64,000 nucleotides of DNA from Methanosarcina sp. MSH10X1 (GTDB taxonomy: Archaea > Halobacteriota > Methanosarcinia > Methanosarcinales > Methanosarcinaceae), in assembly GCF_004099695.1 (NCBI RefSeq), contig NZ_SCHL01000015.1:1-64000 (forward strand), in the 5' to 3' direction. The notes beneath the pieces were generated by a model. The model was not told the origin of the DNA. It ran no database searches and saw only the letters and a list, made by a program, of their open reading frames with translations. Position numbers and translations under genes: made by a program. The first letter of the stretch is position 1. Every line of letters starts with the position of its first letter. Below are positions 199 to 16,152 of this stretch, piece after piece.

Positions 199-300
199 GC
201 TGGCCGGTAGAAATACCTCTAGTTTTGAACCCTCATGAGGCATTGTCATTATCCGGAGAGAGCTTCAGATTTTTGCTTAATTAATGGAAGGTGTAAAGGT

Positions 301-1353
301 ATGAGATGTATATTAATAGGGGGATTCCTGGGAAGCGGGAAAACCACTATGGTAAGAAAACTTGTAGAACACCTGGGGAAACAGGGTCAGAGAACGGCAG
401 TTATCGTTAATGAGATAGGAGAAATCGGGATTGACGGAGGTACGATCTCGGAAGGTGAGATTGAAGTCCGGGAAATCGCAAGCGGCTGCATCTGCTGTGC
501 CCTGAGGATAAGCATGGAACACACCCTGAGAAGCCTCATTGCTTCTTACAGTCCGGACACTCTTATAATCGAGCCCACAGGAATAGCTTTCCCGGATCAG
601 ATAAAGAGAAATATCGAGAACATGGGAATTCCGGAAATAAGCTTTGCCCCTATAGTGAATCTTGTGGATGCCGGCCGCCTGAGCCAGGACAAAGGCGAAC
701 TGCAGAATTTCATGAAAAACCAGATCAGCGATGCTGAGCTTCTGGGCATCAATAAAGTCGAACTCATAAACTGTGAAGAACTCCTGGAAATCTGCCTCTT
801 CCTGCGTAAGTTGAACCCGAAAGCAAGAATGGTCCATTTTTCGGCTCGGCTTGGAGGAGAAAATTTTGACAAATTGCTCAAACTGCTGGATGAAACAGGC
901 AGGACAAAAACAACCGACAGAAAAGAAATTCCTGAATCCAGGGACAATTCAGTCCAAATGTCCGGAGTTTCGGCATATTCATCAGAGTTTGAGATAATTT
1001 CACAGGAGATTCCTCTTGAGACCGCTATTTCGGTTTCGGAACAGATTTTAAATAATATAAAAAATCGAGTAAAGGAGCTGAACTCCGAATTCACAGGGCA
1101 TATAAAGCTTTCATTTGCTCATAAGGGAAATTTCGTAAAGGGAAGTGTGACCTCAGCCCATAGAATCCCGGAGATAGAAATTCTCAAAAAAGAAAAAAAC
1201 GAACGATCAAGAATAAAAGTGCTTTCTGCTGTAACCTCTGTGCCCCAGGCAGAGCTTATTGAAGCTGTGGACGTGGCAATAAGAAGACAGCTTGAAGACA
1301 GGATGCTTTCTTTCAAAAAGTCGGAAATAACCGTCCAGGGCATAACAGGTTAA
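301..1353 (+). CDS. CobW/COG0523-family P-loop GTPase (metallochaperone-like)
   Basis: About 350 aa. The start is ATG 301, preceded by GGAAGGTG; an upstream in-frame ATG at 235 adds residues that precede the P-loop strand and has no good ribosome site. Visible motifs from ATG 301 are a Walker A GGFLGSGKTT (residues 7-16), NEIGEIGIDGG in the switch region, the COG0523 hallmark CxCC (GCICC, Cys63/65/66), IEPTG, and NKVEL as a likely guanine-recognition motif. COG0523 proteins are GTP-dependent metal chaperones (zinc, cobalt) or help metalloenzyme maturation. The C-terminal part after about residue 225 is lysine-rich and less typical. It lies 1.1 kb upstream of mtaC on the same strand, so a role in supplying zinc to MtaB or cobalt/corrinoid to MtaC is possible but inferred. 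Confidence 0.85.
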   Translation: MRCILIGGFLGSGKTTMVRKLVEHLGKQGQRTAVIVNEIGEIGIDGGTISEGEIEVREIASGCICCALRISMEHTLRSLIASYSPDTLIIEPTGIAFPDQIKRNIENMGIPEISFAPIVNLVDAGRLSQDKGELQNFMKNQISDAELLGINKVELINCEELLEICLFLRKLNPKARMVHFSARLGGENFDKLLKLLDETGRTKTTDRKEIPESRDNSVQMSGVSAYSSEFEIISQEIPLETAISVSEQILNNIKNRVKELNSEFTGHIKLSFAHKGNFVKGSVTSAHRIPEIEILKKEKNERSRIKVLSAVTSVPQAELIEAVDVAIRRQLEDRMLSFKKSEITVQGITG

Positions 1354-2458: not shown

Positions 2459-3235
2459 ATGTTGGATTTGAAACTGGAAGACATCGACGGTATATTAGTA
2501 CGTTACAACGTCGCCCTCGAAAAGGAAATGACACCTGACGAAGCTGCAGAAGAGCTTTACCCCAAGGATGAACTCATCTACCCGGTTGCAAAAGCAATCT
2601 ACGAGGGAGAAGAGGATGACGTGGTTGACGCACTCCAGGCCGCAATCGATGCAGGCAAGAAGCCAATCGACCTTATCGACGATGCCCTGATGGTAGGCAT
2701 GGGTGTTGTAACCCAGCTCTACGATGATGGTATCATTTTCCTCCCGAACGTTATGATGTCCGCAGACGCAATGCTTGCAGGTATCGACTTTTGCAAGTCC
2801 CAGACCACCGAAGTCCCTGAGCCAAAGGGCAGGGTTGTCTGCCACGTTGCAGAAGGTGACGTCCATGACATCGGAAAGAACATTGTTGCTGCCCTCCTGA
2901 GAGCAAACGGCTACGAAGTAATTGACCTCGGAAGAGACGTTCCTGTAGACGAAGTAATCGCTGCAGTGGAAAAAGAGAAGCCAATGATGCTCACAGGTAC
3001 TGCCCTCATGACCACCACAATGTATGCATTCAAGGAAGTTAACGACAAGCTCCTTGAAAAGGGAATAAAGATTCCATTCGCATGCGGTGGCGGCGCTGTG
3101 AACCAGGACTTCGTGTCTCAGTATGAACTTGGAGTCTATGGTGAAGAGGCTGCAGACGCCCCCAAGATTGCTGATGCAATCGTTGCAGGTACTACAGATA
3201 TCACAGCATTAAGAGAGGAATTCCACAAACACTGA
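2459..3235 (+). CDS. mtaC: Methanol-specific corrinoid protein MtaC
   Basis: 258 aa, cytoplasmic. It carries the cobamide whose Co(I) accepts the methyl group of methanol from MtaB; MtaA then passes it to coenzyme M. The N-terminal helical cap runs to about residue 120, followed by a Rossmann B12-binding domain. The motif EGDVHDIGKN places the lower cobalt ligand at His136, as in M. barkeri MtaC. The GTALMTTT and ACGGGAVN segments match the other corrinoid-contact loops. The start is ATG 2459 after GGAGGTT. mtaB follows after 13 bp, so the two are cotranscribed and probably made stoichiometrically. Length is standard. Confidence 0.97.
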   Translation: MLDLKLEDIDGILVRYNVALEKEMTPDEAAEELYPKDELIYPVAKAIYEGEEDDVVDALQAAIDAGKKPIDLIDDALMVGMGVVTQLYDDGIIFLPNVMMSADAMLAGIDFCKSQTTEVPEPKGRVVCHVAEGDVHDIGKNIVAALLRANGYEVIDLGRDVPVDEVIAAVEKEKPMMLTGTALMTTTMYAFKEVNDKLLEKGIKIPFACGGGAVNQDFVSQYELGVYGEEAADAPKIADAIVAGTTDITALREEFHKH

Positions 3236-3248
3236 GGAGGGAGCAAAA

Positions 3249-4634
3249 ATGGTAAAAAAATACACATCAATGGCTTACGCTAATGCAGATGACCTGATTT
3301 TCGGGCAGTCAAAGTTCCCTGTAAAGGCAGGGCTCGGCCTTGAGATCGGTGGAGGATATACATCACCCGAAGTTAACTATGCCCCAAGACCTGGAGCCGG
3401 TGCATCCAAAGAAAAGCTCATAAAAGAGTATGAAAGGATCACCACCGACATTATGGCAAGGATGGTTCAGATCGGAGCTCCCTCTGTGGTGCTTGAAACT
3501 GAACACGTTCAGCAGATGTCCAATAACCCTGAATGGGGAGGCGCTGTTGCACACGCCCAGAAGACCATCATGGAAGAATACCACGATGAATACGGCATAA
3601 AGTGCGCACTCCGCCACACAATCGGCGACATCCGTGAAGACCGTGACTACCTCCAGCTCAGGGGAGACAAGTACAGCACCTTTATTGAAGCTTTTGAGGA
3701 AGTTGCAAAGAACGGTGCAGACCTGCTTTCTGTTGAGAGCATGGGTGGTAAGGAAGTCTTCGACTACTCTATTCTGAGAAATGACACTGCAGGTATCCTC
3801 TTCGGTATCGGTGTTCTCGGCAGCATGGACATGGAAATGGTCTGGAAGGACATTTCTGATATTGCAAAGAAGACCGGCACTGTCTCAGCTGGTGACACCG
3901 ACTGTGCCCAGGCAAACACTGCAATGTTCATTGCAGGCGGTCTGCTTGACAAGAACCTTGCTCACACAACTGCAATCGTTGCAAGGGCAATCTCGGCAGC
4001 AAGATCCCTCTGTGCATACGAAGCCGGTGCGGTAGGACCCGGAAAGGACTGCGGTTATGAAAACACCATCATAAAATCCATAGCAGGTGTTCCGATTACT
4101 CAGGAAGGTAAGACCTCAACCTGTGCCCACTCCGACCTCATGGGTAACCTGGTCATGCAGTGCTGTGACCTGTGGTCCAATGAATCCGTTGAATACCACG
4201 GTGAATTCGGCGGTACAACTGTGCAGTGCTGGTCCGAGACCCTGGCATACGACTGTTCCATGATGAACGTTGCCCTTAAGACCGGAAAGGCAAAGGATCT
4301 CAGGGACATTCTTGTGCTTTCTGACAAATACAGAGACCCACAGGGCTATGTGCTTGCCTACGATAACGCCTACAAGATCGGACAGGCAATCGCAAAGGAT
4401 GGAGAAAACAACTACCTCAGATCAAAGAACGCTGCAATTGAATGCTGCAACATTATCGAGGAAGGAGCCAACTCCGGCAAGCTCAGACTCACAAGGTTCG
4501 AAACCAATGCTCTTGCAAAGGTTAAGGCTGACCTTGAAGCCCTTACCGATGATGCTGACAAGTTCATGAGCGACAACCTGACCAAGTTCAAACAGGAAGT
4601 TGCAGTTTTCAAACCAGAAAACTACGGGCTTTAA
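3249..4634 (+). CDS. mtaB: Methanol:corrinoid methyltransferase MtaB
   Basis: 461 aa TIM-barrel zinc enzyme that activates methanol and methylates the Co(I) corrinoid of MtaC. The three zinc ligands known from M. barkeri (Glu164, Cys220, Cys269) correspond here to Glu163 (SVESMGG), Cys219 (GDTDCAQ) and Cys268 (GKDCGY), shifted by one. The ribosome site AGGAGGG lies just before ATG 3249 and overlaps the end of mtaC (stop 3233-3235). A T-rich run (about 4643-4666) follows the stop and may attenuate read-through into the transporter gene. No damage is visible. Confidence 0.97.
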   Translation: MVKKYTSMAYANADDLIFGQSKFPVKAGLGLEIGGGYTSPEVNYAPRPGAGASKEKLIKEYERITTDIMARMVQIGAPSVVLETEHVQQMSNNPEWGGAVAHAQKTIMEEYHDEYGIKCALRHTIGDIREDRDYLQLRGDKYSTFIEAFEEVAKNGADLLSVESMGGKEVFDYSILRNDTAGILFGIGVLGSMDMEMVWKDISDIAKKTGTVSAGDTDCAQANTAMFIAGGLLDKNLAHTTAIVARAISAARSLCAYEAGAVGPGKDCGYENTIIKSIAGVPITQEGKTSTCAHSDLMGNLVMQCCDLWSNESVEYHGEFGGTTVQCWSETLAYDCSMMNVALKTGKAKDLRDILVLSDKYRDPQGYVLAYDNAYKIGQAIAKDGENNYLRSKNAAIECCNIIEEGANSGKLRLTRFETNALAKVKADLEALTDDADKFMSDNLTKFKQEVAVFKPENYGL

Positions 4635-4690
4635 GCCCTAAACTTCTTTTTTTTCGATTTTTCAGAAAAATGGCTTTGTTAGGTGAAACA

Positions 4691-5275
4691 ATGAGCGAAA
4701 ACGTAGGAACTGCTACCATAATAGTTGACAAGACTGCAAACGCTGCCCCCCTTGGTTTTACCGGCCTTGGCCTTGCCGCAGTCCTGTTGAGTTTGAGCTA
4801 CATAGGGGTATATCCTGTAGAATCGATGATTGTCTCCATGGCAATATTTCTGGGTGGATTTGCCCAGGTGTTTGCAGGAATTATGTCCTGGAAAAAAGGA
4901 GATATCTTTGCAGGGACTGCATTCTCAGCTTTCGGCCTATTCTGGTTCTCGCTGGCCGGACTGCTTATTATGCCTGCAATCGGCTGGGCTGAAGCTTCAT
5001 CCGGAACTGCTATGGCCGCGTATCTCTTTATCTGGGGTGTCTATACCTTTGTTATGCTATTAGTTACTATGAAAATAGGAATCCGTGCCCTTCAGTTTGT
5101 ATTTCTTACGTTATTCTTATTGTTTATGTTACTGGCTGTTGTAAACGCAACCGGAAGTGCAGGGTTGCTTGTAGTGGCTGGTTATGTAGGACTTGTTATG
5201 GGCCTTGGGGCCTTATATATAGCTGTAGGCATGGTAATGAATGAAATTCATGGAAAAACCGTAATCCCACTCTAA
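4691..5275 (+). CDS. GPR1/FUN34/YaaH-family transporter (acetate/succinate permease type)
   Basis: 194 aa with six predicted membrane helices. The family signature appears near the N-terminus as NAAPLGFTGLGLAAV, a variant of NPAPLGL. Members carry acetate or succinate with protons; M. mazei AceP is a characterised methanogen relative. ATG 4691 is chosen because AGGTGA sits five bases before it. An in-frame ATG at 4670 lacks such a site and falls in the T-run after mtaB. The gap to mtaB is under 60 bp, so it may share that transcript. Why an acetate-type permease follows a methanol operon is unclear; it could help uptake or export of small C1/C2 compounds. Confidence 0.85.
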   Translation: MSENVGTATIIVDKTANAAPLGFTGLGLAAVLLSLSYIGVYPVESMIVSMAIFLGGFAQVFAGIMSWKKGDIFAGTAFSAFGLFWFSLAGLLIMPAIGWAEASSGTAMAAYLFIWGVYTFVMLLVTMKIGIRALQFVFLTLFLLFMLLAVVNATGSAGLLVVAGYVGLVMGLGALYIAVGMVMNEIHGKTVIPL

Positions 5276-5616
5276 GGTAAGTAGTCAGCATTTAATTAGT
5301 AAGACCCTTAACATCTGAGGGAAAAACCTGCGCCAACCTCGAGATCTATATGAAACCCACAAAAATTGCAGGAAGAAACCGAAGAAGCAATCCAAATTGA
5401 GCCATCAGGCAAGCACAGATTTCAAATCTGTGTTTTCCAGTCCTCCCAAATAATACAGTTTGAATGGTTAAACTCCTTTATTAGACCGCGTTAAAAAAAT
5501 ACAGGTGCTCGAGGGCCTGTTCAATTTTTAAAGAAATTGTCTTTTGTTTTCATTACCTGGAAGAAGAGGTCCGCTTACGAAGGAAAAATTGCAAAACTGA
5601 TAACGGTGAGCTTCGA
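5276..5616. other. Intergenic, 341 bp, with a possible terminator stem
   Basis: No gene is seen. The stretch contains a tight inverted repeat CACAGATTT-C-AAATCTGTG (5414-5432) followed by TTTT, which could end transcription from the mtaCB-transporter unit. Confidence 0.4.
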
Positions 5617-5820
5617 ATGCAAGCGGATAAAAATTTTAAAGAAACCTTGAATGTATCCTATACAGGACTTATTTTGAGTTGCGTATCCACTCTTTTCAAA
5701 CTGATCGCCAGGCTTCCGGCAAACGGTACTTTGCTTCTTGCCGATGCGTTTCGCTCTTTTCCCGAATTTGTCAATAAGTATGTAAAACTCCCTGGTTTTC
5801 CTGTCGCAAGCATCTTCTGA
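5617..5820 (+). pseudogene. Remnant of a cation-efflux (CDF) transporter, N-terminal part
   Basis: 67 codons. The translation resembles the first two transmembrane helices of cation diffusion facilitators: 'TLFKLIARLPANGTLLLADAFRSFPEFVNKYVKLPGFPVAS' parallels the family pattern 'KLIAGLLSGSxALLADAxHSxxD...GFxxASK'. In intact CDF proteins about 200 more residues follow; here a stop comes at 5818-5820 and no continuing frame is seen. The HxxxD-like metal site is replaced by FRSFPE. It is most likely a decayed fragment, with a small chance of a short expressed peptide. Confidence 0.55.
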
Positions 5821-6090
5821 AAAAAGAGAGGGAAAAAGTAACCTTATAGTTACAGGATAAAAATATATAAAAATATAGAAAAAATAAAATAATAATATGG
5901 CAATAATGATGTGAAACCCAGATGAAAAGTCAAAGATTCATTATACAGTCAATATATCGCTTTTAAGCCTTGCAACTATACATTTAGCTACTATAAGGTT
6001 TAACAGCTATCCAGACTTTACGTATAATAACAGGTCTAAATCGGCTGGAATAGAAAGATCTGAATTTTATAAATTACTAGAGATATTGAG
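5821..6090. other. AT-rich intergenic DNA before the 18-bp repeat array
   Basis: Very AT-rich with runs of A and TATA-like words around 5862-5900. No ORF or RNA gene is recognised. It separates the CDF remnant from the repeat array of the HyuA-like genes. Confidence 0.4.
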
Positions 6091-6198
6091 TATCCTAATT
6101 TAACATTATATTCTAATTTAACATTACATCCTAATTTAACATTACATCCTAATTTAACATTACATCCTGATTTAACATTACATCCTAATTTAACATGA
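6091..6198 (+). repeat. Six tandem 18-bp repeats (iteron-like) upstream of the HyuA-like genes
   Basis: Six contiguous 18-bp units start at 6091, 6109, 6127, 6145, 6163 and 6181. The consensus is CATCCTAATTTAACATTA, with only one or two changes per unit. The array ends 16 bp before a TATA box at 6215. There are no spacers, so it is not a CRISPR array. Its position directly upstream of the core promoter suggests an activator- or repressor-binding array. Confidence 0.85.
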
Positions 6199-6210
6199 TC
6201 TCAAACCTTG

Positions 6211-6242
6211 GGAATTTATATAATTTGTAAAAGAGGTTGAAA
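6211..6242 (+). promoter_or_regulatory. Core promoter of the first HyuA-like gene
   Basis: TTTATATAA at 6215-6223 is a good archaeal TATA box, preceded by purine-rich GGGAA as possible BRE. Transcription would start about 25 bp downstream, at or next to ATG 6243, so the message may be nearly leaderless. A GAGGTTG stretch at 6233-6239 could be a ribosome site if initiation is further upstream. Confidence 0.55.
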
Positions 6243-8252
6243 ATGCACTTCAGTCTTGGAATCGATGCAGGGGGCACTTATACTGATGCCGTTATCGTAA
6301 GGGATTCGGACGGAGCTGTGGTTGAATCCAGTAAAGCACTGACTACCTATCCAGATCCTCTCCCTGGGATGAAAAATGCTATTGACTTATTGAGCCCTGA
6401 ATATCTTAAAGATGTTAAACTGGTGTCCGTATCTACAACTCTATCTACAAACACCATCCTGGAAAGTACCGGCTTTCCGGTAGGGCTGATCATGGTAGGG
6501 GACTACGTAATTCCTGAGAAGCTTCCTACGGATTACTGGATCGCGGTCTCAGGAGGGCATAACAGTGACGGTGAAGAACTGAAGGCTCTTGACCTCAACT
6601 CTGTAGAAGAATTTGCTCTCCGGGTAAAAGAAAAAGTTTCGGCTTTTGCAGTTTCTTCGTACTTTAGCAACCGCAACCCTGAACATGAGCTTGCTGTCAA
6701 AAAGGCCGTAAAGGAGCTTACAGGACATCCTGTGGTTTGCGGACACGAACTTTCCCAGGATCTTGGAGCCTATGAAAGGGCTATAACGGCATTTCTTAAC
6801 GCCCAGCTAATTCCTATTACTCACAAGTTTATCCAGGCAATAGTCAAGGAATTTGAAATCAGAAGTATAAATGCGAATATGCTGATGTTGAAATGCGACG
6901 GGTCAGTGGTGGGAATAGAAGAAGCCCTGGAAAAACCCATTGAGACCATATTCTCAGGTCCTGCCGCAAGCCTTGTGGGTGCATCTCATCTGACCAGGTT
7001 CAATACCTGTGCTATGATTGATGTCGGCGGTACGAGCACAGACGTAGCTATGATGGTAAATGGGCTTCCGCAGCTCAGCAATTCTGGTGCCGTTGTTGGG
7101 GGCTGGCAAACTCGCGTAAAAGCGATACGTATGGAAACGTCAGCAACCGGCGGGGACAGCCATGTATGGGTAAAAGGCGACAGAATCCATATTGGTCCCC
7201 GGAGGGTGATCCCGCTCTGCCGGGCTTCGGTTATATACCCCGAGTTCAGGGAAAAATTGAAACATAACAGGGTTGCAAAAGGATATCTTTGCGAGAGCAT
7301 ACAGGTAACGAAGTTTTATGTCAGAACCGGCTTCAGGCCTATTGAGTTGAGGGCAGGAGAGCGTGAGATTTACAGGCATATAGGAAAAGAGCCTGTTTCC
7401 TTCGGAGACCTGCTCGTAGCCCTGAAAAAACGCCCTTCTCCGTCGATGCTGGACTCATTAATCCAGAAGAGGTTGATCCAGGCAATAGGGTTTACTCCTA
7501 CCGATGCCCTTCATGTGCTTGGAGAATACACCGAATGGGACGTGGAAGCCGCAAAAATCGGAGCTTCCATGCTTGGTAGAATACTGAAACATAGTCCTGA
7601 GGCTTTTAGTGCTGAAACAAAACGCAGGGTTGCGCGTAATATTGCCGAGGATCTTATTGCATACCTTATTGAAGGAATGCCAAGAAACGAGATTGATAGG
7701 GTTCTTATGGGAAAGAACTTTACCCGCTTCAGGGTAGAAATTCCTGTAGTACTTCTTGGAGGACCTGTAAAGGCATATGTTGAGAATTTGAAAAGCCTGA
7801 TTAATGCTGATATCATAGTTCCCGAACACGCCGAGGTAGGCAATGCTGTCGGAGCCCTTGTTGGAAAAGGAATTAAAAGAGTAGAAATTCTTATAAAAAC
7901 GAAAGTTATCCCCATATCCCGTGAGGCTGAAACTGAAAGCATGGATTACGAGGCACACGAGAAGTGTCCTGCAGAGGAGATTTTGCAGTACGAGACGAAA
8001 AACGAGTTCATTGTCTTTTCTCCTTCCGAGAGAAAGAAATTTGAAGTTTATAGTGAAGCCGTTGAATATGCGGAAAAGCTCGGAAAGCAGCTTGTTATGG
8101 ATTATATGGTAGGCGCAGGGCTTCAAAAGGAGAATATAAAAATAGACGTGAGCAGGAGACACCTGGCACCAAGCGGCTGGACTGATGTGCCCCTGGAAAC
8201 AAATCTTGTTTTCGTAGGGATAGGAATCCCTAAAACTACGAGTACGCCCTGA
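6243..8252 (+). CDS. HyuA-like (hydantoinase/oxoprolinase, COG0145) ASKHA-fold ATPase, copy 1
   Basis: 669 aa. The N-terminus is SLGIDAGGTYTD, the phosphate-1 loop of the actin/hexokinase fold, and the second phosphate loop IDVGGTSTD follows in mid-protein. VSTTLSTNTIL and TIFSGPAASLVGA are typical of HyuA/oxoprolinase proteins. ATG 6243 is preferred to the TTG at 6237 because copy 2 starts at the same place (MQYSLGIDAGG). The family hydrolyses ATP to activate cyclic amides, but related ASKHA proteins (RamA, COG3894) re-activate oxidised corrinoid proteins. No ferredoxin domain is present here. Its place between mtaCB and the Msr-like regulators favours a methanol-linked role, which is inference. 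Confidence 0.85.
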   Translation: MHFSLGIDAGGTYTDAVIVRDSDGAVVESSKALTTYPDPLPGMKNAIDLLSPEYLKDVKLVSVSTTLSTNTILESTGFPVGLIMVGDYVIPEKLPTDYWIAVSGGHNSDGEELKALDLNSVEEFALRVKEKVSAFAVSSYFSNRNPEHELAVKKAVKELTGHPVVCGHELSQDLGAYERAITAFLNAQLIPITHKFIQAIVKEFEIRSINANMLMLKCDGSVVGIEEALEKPIETIFSGPAASLVGASHLTRFNTCAMIDVGGTSTDVAMMVNGLPQLSNSGAVVGGWQTRVKAIRMETSATGGDSHVWVKGDRIHIGPRRVIPLCRASVIYPEFREKLKHNRVAKGYLCESIQVTKFYVRTGFRPIELRAGEREIYRHIGKEPVSFGDLLVALKKRPSPSMLDSLIQKRLIQAIGFTPTDALHVLGEYTEWDVEAAKIGASMLGRILKHSPEAFSAETKRRVARNIAEDLIAYLIEGMPRNEIDRVLMGKNFTRFRVEIPVVLLGGPVKAYVENLKSLINADIIVPEHAEVGNAVGALVGKGIKRVEILIKTKVIPISREAETESMDYEAHEKCPAEEILQYETKNEFIVFSPSERKKFEVYSEAVEYAEKLGKQLVMDYMVGAGLQKENIKIDVSRRHLAPSGWTDVPLETNLVFVGIGIPKTTSTP

Positions 8253-8409
8253 AAGAATAGAAACAGAGATCAGGGAATGAATAGCCGGATATTATAAACA
8301 GGGATATATATCTTGAGGAATAATTTTGCAAATCCGGATGAAAAAGATGTATACAGCTAAAAAAGGACCTGAATTGAGTAACATAGAGTAAAAATGGGGC
8401 TGTTTTGAC

Positions 8410-10338
8410 ATGCAATATAGTCTGGGTATTGACGCAGGCGGAACTTACACCGATACTGTAATTTTAAGAGATTTGGACAGTAGTATCGTTGACACAAGCA
8501 AAGCACTTACTACCTATCCGAACCTTATGGTAGGGATTCGAAATGCAATTGACAAACTGAATCCGGAATATCTCAGCAAAGTAAAAATGGTGTCGGTTTC
8601 TACAACCCTATCGACAAATACCATTCTAGAAGGAACAGGATATCCTGTTGGTCTTATTCTTGTAGGGGATTATACCTTCCCAAAGGAACTTCCCGCAGAT
8701 TACTGTACTACTGTAAGAGGGGGACACGATAGCAATGGAGATGAGCTTCAACCTCTGGACCTTACTGCCGTAGAACAGTTTGCAATAAGTCTCAAAAAAA
8801 GAGTTTCTGCATTTGCGGTATCCTCGTACTTCAGCACAAGAAATCCAGAACATGAACTTAAAATTAAGCAAACTATCCTTAAATTGACAGGTCATCCTGT
8901 GGTTTGCGGTCACGAACTCTCCCAGGAGCTTGGAGTGTACGAACGGGCAGCTACAGCTGTCTTAAACGCGCAGCTAATTCCGATAACATGTCAGTTTATC
9001 CATTCCATTATGGCTGAAGTAAAGGAAAGAAATCTTGATGCGAAAGTTCTTATGCTGAAATGCGACGGCTCGGTTATAGATATAAAAGGTGCAAAACTGC
9101 GCCCCATTGAAACTATATTTTCAGGCCCTGCAGCAAGTATTATGGGAGCTTCTCACCTTTCAGGACTGGATACCTGTGCCGTTATCGATGTGGGAGGGAC
9201 GAGCACGGATATTTCCATAATGAAAAAGGGAGTTCCGGAGCTTTGTGAGAAAGGAGCAATTGTTGGGGGCTGGCAAACCCGCGTAAAAGCAATCAGAATG
9301 GAGAGTTCGGCAAATGGAGGAGACAGCCATGTCTGGTTTAAGAAATGCGTCAGAATAGGCCCGAGAAGAGTTATGCCCCTTTGCTTTGCTGCCGTAAAGT
9401 ACCCGGGCTTCAAAGAAAAACTGGAAAAAAACCCCATACCCTTGAGAACAATGCTCAATGAGCATATTCAGCCCACAAAATTCTTTGTAAGTACTGGGGC
9501 AGATCCTATTAATCCCACAGAAAGCGAGAAAAAATTACTTGAGTTTATAAAAGACGAGCCTCTTTCAATTCACGAGATCCTGAATAAAATGAAGCGTTTC
9601 CCGTCTCCAGCAGTGCTTGATTCACTGATCCAGCAGCGAGCGATCCAGGCTATAGGTTTCACGCCTACCGATGTGCTGCATGTGCTTGGGGAATACACGG
9701 AATGGGACGTGGAAGCAGCCCAGATAGGAGCCAAAAAGCTTTCGCGTTTTACTCAAATGGGAGTTCACGCCTTTTGCAAAAAAATAAAGCAACAGGTTGC
9801 AAAAAATATGGTTTACAGCCTGATGTCCTTTATTATGGAAGGCAGGGGAAGAGAGGGAATAAAAAAACTGCTGGAGGAAGAAATGCCTGTCCAGTACAAG
9901 TTAAATATTCCTATAGTCCTGCTCGGAGGCCCTGTAAAGGCTTATTATGAGGAGATTAAGGCTCTCATTGATGCAGAGATTATAGTCCCCGAACAGGCAA
10001 GGGTAGGTAATGCAGTTGGAGCGCTCGTAGGAAAAGGAATTAAAAGAATTGAGATAATTATCAGGCCGTCTTCAATGGAAAACCCTGACCAGAATTTCCT
10101 GGTATTTACTCCCGCAGGAAGGAAGAAATTTGAGCAATATTGCACGGCAGTAGAATATTCCCATAAAACGGGTGAAGAACTCATTCTGGAGTCAATGAAA
10201 GATTTCGGTCTTCCGGAAGATTCAATAAAGATAAACTCAAGCGTGGAATATCTTTCTCCCCCTGGCTGGAAACAGACACCTATGGAGACGAAGATGGTTT
10301 TTGTAGGGATCTGTACCCCCGGGATTTCAACTAATTAA
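8410..10338 (+). CDS. HyuA-like (COG0145) ASKHA-fold ATPase, copy 2
   Basis: 642 aa, a clear tandem paralogue of the gene at 6243-8252, nearly collinear with many identical blocks: SLGIDAGGTYTD, SKALTTYP, VSTTLSTNTILE, HPVVCGHELSQ, VIDVGGTSTDI, HVLGEYTEWDVEAA. The copies differ by a shorter segment near residue 570, where copy 1 has an extra charged stretch. The 157-bp gap shows no terminator, so the two could be cotranscribed and might form a heteromer. The substrate is unknown; see copy 1 for the corrinoid-activation idea. Confidence 0.85.
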   Translation: MQYSLGIDAGGTYTDTVILRDLDSSIVDTSKALTTYPNLMVGIRNAIDKLNPEYLSKVKMVSVSTTLSTNTILEGTGYPVGLILVGDYTFPKELPADYCTTVRGGHDSNGDELQPLDLTAVEQFAISLKKRVSAFAVSSYFSTRNPEHELKIKQTILKLTGHPVVCGHELSQELGVYERAATAVLNAQLIPITCQFIHSIMAEVKERNLDAKVLMLKCDGSVIDIKGAKLRPIETIFSGPAASIMGASHLSGLDTCAVIDVGGTSTDISIMKKGVPELCEKGAIVGGWQTRVKAIRMESSANGGDSHVWFKKCVRIGPRRVMPLCFAAVKYPGFKEKLEKNPIPLRTMLNEHIQPTKFFVSTGADPINPTESEKKLLEFIKDEPLSIHEILNKMKRFPSPAVLDSLIQQRAIQAIGFTPTDVLHVLGEYTEWDVEAAQIGAKKLSRFTQMGVHAFCKKIKQQVAKNMVYSLMSFIMEGRGREGIKKLLEEEMPVQYKLNIPIVLLGGPVKAYYEEIKALIDAEIIVPEQARVGNAVGALVGKGIKRIEIIIRPSSMENPDQNFLVFTPAGRKKFEQYCTAVEYSHKTGEELILESMKDFGLPEDSIKINSSVEYLSPPGWKQTPMETKMVFVGICTPGISTN

Positions 10339-10482: not shown

Positions 10483-11268
10483 ATGGATTCCTCACTTATT
10501 GATCTTGTTTTCCGCTCCGATAAGAGAAAAAACCTTCTTCTTTTGCTGGATAGCGGCTCGAAAAATATTGATGAGATCAGGAACGCACTTGATGTTACAG
10601 CCACCTCAATCCTTCCCCAGATAAAGAAGCTGATAGATAACGATCTTATTGTCCAGGAAGACAGGATGTATAAACTAACAGTCCTGGGAGAATTCCTAAT
10701 CAAAAAAATAAAGCCGCTTATAAGTGCTCTTGAGGTAGTGGAGAAAAACAACTCTTACTGGACAGGTCACGACCTGAACTCAATCCCGCGCCACCTGCTG
10801 GAACGCATATCCGAACTCGGAAATTGGACCCTTATAGAGCCCGACCTTAACCATATATATGAGCCTTCTCCGAAAATTATTGACAGCATGAGCAACGCAA
10901 AACAGGCTTCGACTTTTGCTTCTTATTTCAACCCTGCCTATCTTCCGCTGTATGTCGAACTCGGCAGGAAAGATGCCGAACTTTCCCTGAATTTTACCCA
11001 GTCGGTCTGGGACCATCTTTCAAACGAGCACTCAAATATGATAAATGAATTAATGGGTATGGATAATGTAAGCCTGTATGTTTCCAAAGAGGGAATTAAG
11101 CTTACTGAGATTACTGTAACAGAGAGGATAATGCTGCTGGGGCTTTTTGATAAAAAAGGGAAATTCGACCAGCAGTTCATTCTGAGCTCCGAACCCAGTG
11201 CCCTTCTATGGGGCCAGGAGTTGTTTGATTATTTCAAGAGGCTTTCCAGACTGGTAAATAAGATATGA
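10483..11268 (+). CDS. FilR1/Msr-type winged-helix regulator, copy 1
   Basis: 261 aa. The N-terminal 80 residues form an ArsR-like winged helix (LIDLVFRSDKRKNLLLLL...IDEIRNALDVTATSILPQIKKL). A C-terminal FilR1-type sensor domain (DUF1724) follows, ending ALLWGQELFDYFKRL. In M. acetivorans, Msr proteins of this family control the mtaCB operons in pairs; two of them lie near mtaCB2. This gene and the next are therefore likely MsrD/MsrE-type activators of the mtaCB operon here, though I cannot assign which is which. There are no cysteine clusters or obvious ligand motif. It sits 144 bp after the HyuA-like pair. Confidence 0.85.
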   Translation: MDSSLIDLVFRSDKRKNLLLLLDSGSKNIDEIRNALDVTATSILPQIKKLIDNDLIVQEDRMYKLTVLGEFLIKKIKPLISALEVVEKNNSYWTGHDLNSIPRHLLERISELGNWTLIEPDLNHIYEPSPKIIDSMSNAKQASTFASYFNPAYLPLYVELGRKDAELSLNFTQSVWDHLSNEHSNMINELMGMDNVSLYVSKEGIKLTEITVTERIMLLGLFDKKGKFDQQFILSSEPSALLWGQELFDYFKRLSRLVNKI

Positions 11269-11595: not shown

Positions 11596-12384
11596 ATGGA
11601 GTCATCATTACTGGATGTTCTCTTTCTTTCAGAAAAAAGGAAAAACCTACTTCTACTGCTTCTGGATGGACCCAAGAACATCGAAGAAATCAAAAATATA
11701 CTTGATGTTCGCTCGAGCCCCATAATGACCCAGATAAAGATACTGATGAAACAGGATCTTATAGTTGAGAGCAACAGGCTCTATAAACTTTCCAGTATCG
11801 GAGAAATTCTGGTTCCGAAGATGAAGACAATTCTGGAGACTTTTAGTGTTTTTGATAAAAACCACGATTACTGGATAAACCAGGATATGACATCAATTCC
11901 TCCTGAATTTCTGGACGAGATAGGAAAGCTTGGAGATTATATTGAAGTAAATCCTGACCGGAACCATGTATTCGAATATCCCAAAGAGGTTGTAAAACAT
12001 CTTTCCGAGTCCGAGAAAGTGATGATCTCATCGTCCTTTTTCCTGCCTATCTATCCATCCCTGTGCATAGAACTTGCAGCAAAAGGTACGGATATAACTC
12101 TGGTATTTACAGAATATGTGTATGATAGAATGCTTAACGATTACAAGAGGGAACTTGAGCATTTCCTGAACCTTAAATATACCAGACTTTATGTCTGCAA
12201 CAATAACAATATGAAAATTGCCTCAAGCATAGTTACGGAAAAGTTCATGGCGCTTTCTCTCTTCTGTAACAGCGGAATTTATTATAACCACAACCTGGTG
12301 AGTTTTGATGAAAGCGCACTCAAATGGGGAAAAGAGCTTTTCGATCATTATAAAGGAATAGCAAGACCCATCACCAGAGTCTGA
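11596..12384 (+). CDS. FilR1/Msr-type winged-helix regulator, copy 2
   Basis: 262 aa, a paralogue of the preceding regulator with the same layout: a winged helix (LLDVLFLSEKRKNLLLLLLDGPKNIEEIKNILDVRSSPIMTQIKIL) and a DUF1724 half ending ALKWGKELFDHYKGIAR. Characterised Msr proteins act on methanol methyltransferase promoters, often two different proteins per operon, and the tandem pair here fits that. The lengths match within one residue, indicating duplication. Direct targets are inferred from location only. Confidence 0.85.
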   Translation: MESSLLDVLFLSEKRKNLLLLLLDGPKNIEEIKNILDVRSSPIMTQIKILMKQDLIVESNRLYKLSSIGEILVPKMKTILETFSVFDKNHDYWINQDMTSIPPEFLDEIGKLGDYIEVNPDRNHVFEYPKEVVKHLSESEKVMISSSFFLPIYPSLCIELAAKGTDITLVFTEYVYDRMLNDYKRELEHFLNLKYTRLYVCNNNNMKIASSIVTEKFMALSLFCNSGIYYNHNLVSFDESALKWGKELFDHYKGIARPITRV

Positions 12385-16083: not shown

Positions 16084-16152
16084 CGAAACCGTTGACCCGA
16101 AACCGTTGACCCGAAACCGTTGACCCGAAACCGTTGACCCGCGACCGTTGCG
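16084..16152. repeat. Four tandem 14-bp repeats plus a degenerate fifth
   Basis: CGAAACCGTTGACC occurs at 16084, 16098, 16112 and 16126 without interruption. A degenerate unit CGCGACCGTTGCG follows at 16140. The GC-rich repeat contrasts with the AT-rich surroundings and leads directly into the hairpin block. Confidence 0.85.

Follow-up and report, generated by a model that had tools for sequence, protein, structure and literature searches.

Methanol, methylamines and methyl sulfides enter methanogenesis through corrinoid-dependent methyltransferases, which also feed the bacterial use of glycine betaine. The loading and upkeep of their cofactor are partly understood, RamA being the characterized activator. 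The RamA/RACE corrinoid activases are ASKHA ATPases whose genes lie beside those of corrinoid methyltransferases, and the ASKHA reactivases, such as the DdrA-type diol-dehydratase reactivase and GlmL, are the class with which the mechanism proposed below is compared. At the mtaCB2 locus of Methanosarcina acetivorans, two proteins encoded beside msrDE, MA4395 and MA4396, were named 'predicted hydantoinases' in a 2024 paper (PMC11619418). Here we examine a similarly placed pair, HydA1 and HydA2, in a 64,000-nucleotide stretch of DNA from Methanosarcina sp. MSH10X1 (contig NZ_SCHL01000015.1, positions 1 to 64,000 of the forward strand; hereafter the window). Both are standalone HyuA-like ASKHA ATPases encoded on the + strand, HydA1 (669 residues from the ATG at 6243) at 6243..8252 and HydA2 (642 residues) at 8410..10338, and by position they are MA4395-like and MA4396-like, respectively. 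The evidence leads us to favor the reading that HydA1 and HydA2 are HyuA-fold accessory factors of corrinoid-dependent methyltransferases, driven by ATP and acting beside RamA.

Genomic neighborhood of the HydA subfamily

A search over 84,980 species genomes confirmed at least 576 relatives. The best 80 of these belong to Methanosarcinaceae (mostly 45-88% identity), to Methanomassiliicoccales and to bacteria (32-40%), with Desulfosporosinus, Acididesulfobacillus, Ca. Formimonas, Chloroflexi and Eggerthellaceae among the bacterial hosts. When 69 members are aligned, the ATP motifs and many further columns are invariant, and the profile built from the alignment gives every member at least 702 bits and other HydA proteins no more than 330 bits; in seven bacterial genomes the gap lies between 755 and 251 bits. 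Among 345 genomes sampled from the phylum, the subfamily was found in 51 of 51 Methanosarcinaceae and in none outside that family.

Over 78 loci, members have a B12-binding corrinoid protein as their most recurrent neighbor, at 17 of 31 loci outside the Methanosarcinaceae and at 21 of 47 within that family; next come MttB, COG0523, RamA, MtaA, DUF1638, MeTr-type pterin-binding proteins and MtaB. Methyltransferase genes thin out with distance: outside the Methanosarcinaceae there are 2.4 per 10 kilobases (kb) in the nearest 2 kb and 0.2-0.6 past 4 kb, and inside that family the density drops from 1.7 to 0.1 per 10 kb at 8-10 kb. Bacterial operons with members have the order corrinoid-MttB-corrinoid-MttB-HydA-MeTr, often with DUF1638 beside HydA, and their intergenic gaps are of tens of bases. 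The control consisted of the remaining HydA loci in the seven bacterial genomes scored above. A corrinoid or MttB gene lies within 5 kb of 12 of the 14 members and of 2 of the 13 other HydA genes (Fisher p 4e-4), the reference set being drawn partly from loci among the 14 and the orthologous operons not being independent; of seven loci fetched later than the reference set, six are still linked to a corrinoid or MttB gene. For HyuB the distribution is the reverse, with none within 5 kb of the 14 members and one near 8 of the 13 other HydA genes (p ~6e-4).

The locus in Ca. Formimonas warabiya (L134) matches, gene by gene, the glycine-betaine cluster described for strain DCMF (PMC9768040), and its HydA protein has 668 residues and a subfamily-profile score of 867 bits. 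In that paper Ga0180325_114738, a protein of 668 residues, is entered as 'Unknown' in the table and called a hydantoinase in the text, and its abundance is strongly raised on glycine betaine (log2 change 7.2 relative to dichloromethane; PMC9768040).

Since the family sits beside B12-type methyl-transfer genes in both archaea and bacteria, it probably services them and not hydantoin breakdown. Methanol, methyl sulfides and glycine betaine are the substrates of the different client systems, and the corrinoid step is all that these systems have in common, so the corrinoid protein is the likely client. An earlier, sequence-only reading of this DNA had tentatively placed the pair with corrinoid upkeep rather than with hydantoin or oxoproline hydrolysis, and the separation by profile, the neighborhood, the same-genome control and the member in a glycine-betaine operon all support that assignment. 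We judge it quite likely that the pair is a dedicated corrinoid-methyltransferase accessory.

The MSH10X1 genome encodes HydA-family proteins at nine places, six of which belong to this one subfamily (48-60% identity to HydA2): the two in the window, two in tandem on contig C52, and one each on C54 and C4. The C4 member (L022:3840-14447) stands in a row with an MtaA homologue, a PAS kinase, an Msr regulator and an mtsF-type fused corrinoid/methyltransferase, and this row is the methyl-sulfide counterpart of the window locus. Beside the C52 pair (L020:6772-10947) is a gene for a pyruvoyl-dependent arginine decarboxylase; methyltransferase genes are absent there. Tandem arrangements like that of C52 were also seen at L038, L039 and L057, and a decarboxylase neighbor at L057 and L070.

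Sequence and predicted structure of the pair

HydA1 and HydA2 are ~60% identical, and their open reading frames (ORFs) are both intact and full-length. The two proteins match PF05378 (Hydant_A_N; E values 6e-32 and 2e-33) and PF01968 (Hydantoinase_A; 8e-30 and 4e-29), and both carry GIDAGGTYTD and DVGGTSTD, motifs kept in archaeal and bacterial relatives alike. The ORFs, Pfam matches and motifs thus agree with the first description of the pair as two ASKHA-fold paralogues between mtaCB and regulators. In HydA2 the phosphate-1 motif GIDAGGTYTD spans residues 6-15 (8425..8454, + strand), with D8 and GGTYTD invariant in 69/69 members, and the phosphate-2 motif DVGGTSTD spans residues 260-267 (9187..9210, +), with D260, GGT and D267 likewise invariant in 69/69.

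Elsewhere the subfamily departs from canonical HyuA. Residues 303-306 of HydA2 (9316..9327, +) form the signature GGDS, found in 69/69 members, with GGGS in 0/69; the position of D305 is a glycine in 7/7 HyuB-type proteins, HyuB-partnered HyuA having GGGS. An insertion of ~85 residues (333-417; 9406..9660, +) replaces the canonical GPxSAGxxPGPxCY segment, and GPxSAGxxPGP was found in none of the 69 members. Both GGGS and GPxSAGxxPGP are present in the HyuA-HyuB fusion on contig C18 of the same genome. This fusion contains the only HyuB of the genome, and none was found near the pair at the window locus, in line with the absence of a HyuB partner reported at the outset. When seven HyuB-type proteins and five short standalone HydA proteins were aligned with the subfamily, H106, P163, C166 and H424 emerged as subfamily-specific residues. 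The short standalone HydA group, of 555-573 residues and without HyuB, was observed at L145, L150, L153, L155 and L157 and at L029 (contig C19 of the MSH10X1 genome); D305 and N534 are common to it and the subfamily, the five aligned bacterial proteins of the group carrying both states.

An AlphaFold2 model of HydA2 (predicted local distance difference test score 89.8, predicted template modeling score 0.85) was compared with solved structures by Foldseek. The nearest are all HyuA-type (E values 7e-31 to 5e-25), the best matches being N-methylhydantoinase, acetone carboxylase, acetophenone carboxylase and caprolactamase; activases (1hux, MbdO/P) match far more weakly (~1e-6). In a quick tree, whose deeper forks are moderately supported, HydA1 groups with an mtaCB-linked member of Methanimicrococcus (Shimodaira-Hasegawa-like approximate likelihood ratio test 92). 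HydA1 and HydA2 belong to different clades, both of which include mtaCB-linked members of other genera, and a recent tandem duplication was rejected on this ground.

The whole-length match to N-methylhydantoinase, acetone carboxylase and caprolactamase would suit a catabolic or biosynthetic enzyme, that is, an ATP-dependent kinase, hydrolase or carboxylase acting without HyuB on a small molecule of methyl metabolism, and so would the strong response of the Ca. F. warabiya protein to its substrate. We nevertheless consider such an enzyme unlikely. HyuB is missing near all 14 bacterial members, the GPxSAGxxPGP segment is gone from the whole alignment and GGDS stands in place of GGGS, and methanol, methyl sulfides and glycine betaine share no attackable bond, only the corrinoid step. 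A hydantoinase or oxoprolinase was rejected, as HyuB is absent and the diagnostic motifs are lost.

Relation to RamA, DUF1638 and methanol

The pair might instead be a methanol-specific reductive activator that drives MtaC from Co(II) to Co(I) with ATP, replacing RamA or working in parallel to it. The ASKHA fold is broadly common to activases, and the pair adjoins mtaCB. However, the iron-sulfur (Fe-S) motif CxxCxxC occurs in 0/69 members, which have one invariant cysteine, whereas the RamA proteins of the same genome have CxxCxxCxxxC plus CxxC in 5/5 cases. PF14574 (RACo_C_ter) has no match in HydA1 or HydA2 and is carried by five other loci of the genome. RACo_C_ter (RamA-type) proteins are also present in 23/23 distant member-bearing genomes, so the subfamily adds to RamA and does not replace it. 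The fold, the lack of an Fe-S motif and the presence of both kinds of protein in the same genomes uphold the earlier view that the pair is distinct from RamA, and the last two of these speak against a function as a RamA-type reductive activator.

Specificity for methanol, which had also been proposed, found no support either. Relatives adjoin mtsF-type methyl-sulfide genes and MttB glycine-betaine operons. The MSH10X1 genome has three mtaB genes, and at the other two mtaCB loci no HydA gene was found within the stretches read; three of its six members lie away from methyltransferase genes. A methanol-specific substitute for RamA was therefore rejected, given the missing Fe-S motifs, the RamA proteins in all distant hosts and the non-methanol relatives, and a reductive activator of this kind is in our view very improbable.

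The association with mtaCB is nonetheless close within the family. Of the 32 further Methanosarcina-type genomes with mtaB (genus groups g1 and g5; coordinate tables read by eye), 27 have the gene within ~8 kb of a member, and the remaining five are fragmented drafts. Methanolobus, Methanococcoides and Methanimicrococcus also have mtaCB linked to a member, in differing arrangements. HydA matches are present in 104 of 112 Methanosarcinaceae genomes and mtaB in 96 of 112, but co-occurrence inside the family is confounded by descent and is not our main evidence. Nor is it exclusive: G098, a 99% complete Methanosarcina genome, has no mtaB yet encodes several HydA members, including a C52-type pair. 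The expected co-occurrence with mtaCB is thus strong in Methanosarcinaceae, with that confounding, and fails as an exclusive relation.

A further candidate partner is DUF1638, which lies directly beside the HydA member in the bacterial operons L135, L136, L137, L138 and L140 and is the sole recognized partner in L136. In Phaeobacter, B12-dependent methionine synthesis requires DUF1638 and a RamA-like protein (PMC5764234), and in R. pomeroyi DUF1638 rises with RamA on methylated compounds (PMC12478193). Of the four DUF1638 genes in MSH10X1, two lie ~8-9 kb away from a RamA/dimethylamine locus.

The methanol locus in the window

The layout of this locus matches that of MA4391-MA4398 in M. acetivorans. 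Upstream of the pair, all on the + strand, are a COG0523/CobW-type GTPase (235..1353; PF02492), mtaC, encoding the methanol corrinoid protein and candidate client (2459..3235; NF040655, 461.7 bits, cut-off 420), mtaB, encoding the methanol:corrinoid methyltransferase (3249..4634; NF040651, 832.5 bits, cut-off 720), and an mtaP-like gene for a GPR1/FUN34/YaaH membrane protein (4670..5275; PF01184, E value 1e-31). The identities of mtaC and mtaB rest on NCBIfam equivalogs above cut-off. COG0523 is a metal-chaperone family whose clustering with mta genes is already known (PMC2770081). Downstream, also on the + strand, are two FilR1_middle regulators, MsrD-like (10483..11268; PF08350, 3e-32) and MsrE-like (11596..12384; PF08350, 1e-34) by position, in synteny with MA4395-4396-msrDE.

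For HydA1 the ATG at 6243 is preferred as the start, with the ribosome-binding-like sequence AAGAGGTTG just 5' of it; an in-frame TTG at 6237 is also listed for this ORF. Between the mtaP-like gene and HydA1 is a gap of 960 base pairs (bp; 5276-6236) that contains only small ORFs, the largest of 67 residues, and gave no match in an Rfam scan, so HydA1 probably has a promoter of its own. An 18-bp direct repeat, ATCCTAATTTAACATTAC, was observed at 6092-6196 (5.8 copies, 94% match), its end lying ~46 bp short of the HydA1 start. The repeat is not present 5' of the HydA1 orthologues at L030 and L031. A conserved RNA or regulatory element in the gap was rejected, as Rfam gave no match and the repeat is not kept at these two loci. 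Elsewhere in the window, 4.8 copies of a 14-bp tandem repeat, CGAAACCGTTGACC, occupy 16084-16150, between called ORFs.

Given this layout, the pair could be a sensor or regulatory ATPase working with Msr regulators, or a neighbor without a functional link to the methanol genes. It sits between mtaCB and the msrDE-like genes, members stand beside Msr/PAS genes at mts loci, and the 960-bp gap suggests separate transcription. Msr-type regulators, however, were seen at member loci in Methanosarcinaceae only, whereas the corrinoid link reaches bacterial operons with tight gaps, and we give this explanation little credence.

Proposed role

If HydA1 and HydA2 are accessory factors of corrinoid-dependent methyltransferases, their client at the window locus is most likely MtaC/MtaB. 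Binding or hydrolysis of ATP would drive closure of the two lobes on the corrinoid protein, with the 333-417 insertion and H106, C166 and H424 as candidate contact or ligand sites. Closure may remodel or reload the corrinoid site and so let RamA keep the corrinoid as Co(I). The action would resemble that of the ASKHA reactivases (diol-dehydratase reactivase, GlmL/MutL) without the pair being one of them. That the function is specifically a remodeling step at the corrinoid site, a suggestion made by analogy, is somewhat doubtful.

Several observations weigh against an accessory role. No biochemical or genetic study of any member was found in the literature searched, and the full-length HyuA fold makes a role as substrate kinase or hydrolase possible. 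For half of the members in the MSH10X1 genome (the C52 pair and C54), no methyltransferase gene is nearby, so any clients they have would be encoded elsewhere. G129, a genome rich in corrinoid proteins, is without the subfamily, and G092, a Methanosarcina draft, has mtaB and no member; the subfamily is therefore not essential everywhere.

More broadly, we tentatively suggest that archaea and anaerobic bacteria share an ATP-driven system that services corrinoid proteins, made up of the HydA subfamily, often with DUF1638, beside RamA, and that the mtaCB2 pair is its methanol version. Such a system would so far have gone unrecognized under the database label of hydantoinase. If true, a second conserved ATPase would be a missing component of these operons, misfiled as a hydantoinase, and annotations in many genomes would need correcting. 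The idea is directly accessible through existing M. acetivorans genetics.

Comparison with known systems

The HydA pair shares its whole fold, both phosphate motifs and invariant core residues with the HyuA-type subunits of N-methylhydantoinase, 5-oxoprolinase/caprolactamase and acetone and acetophenone carboxylase. It differs from them in lacking a HyuB partner, in having GGDS instead of GGGS and the insertion instead of GPxSAGxxPGP, and in H106, C166 and H424, which are found in the subfamily only. From the RamA/RACE activases, which it resembles in being ASKHA ATPases encoded beside corrinoid methyltransferases, the pair is set apart by a different branch of the fold and by the lack of an Fe-S motif and of PF14574. 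MutL/GlmL (PF13941), the accessory of B12-dependent glutamate mutase, is also an ASKHA protein and has weak N-terminal similarity to HydA members; four bacterial members exceed the PF13941 cut-off of 27 bits, at 31.6-35.5 bits, and the window pair falls just short of it. This similarity is mostly confined to ~50 residues around the phosphate-1 motif, however, and length and context differ. Two further close counterparts carry only an annotation. MA4395/MA4396 of M. acetivorans, with the same locus layout, are labelled 'predicted hydantoinase', and Ga0180325_114738, which belongs to the subfamily and is encoded in the glycine-betaine operon of Ca. Formimonas warabiya, is labelled '?'.

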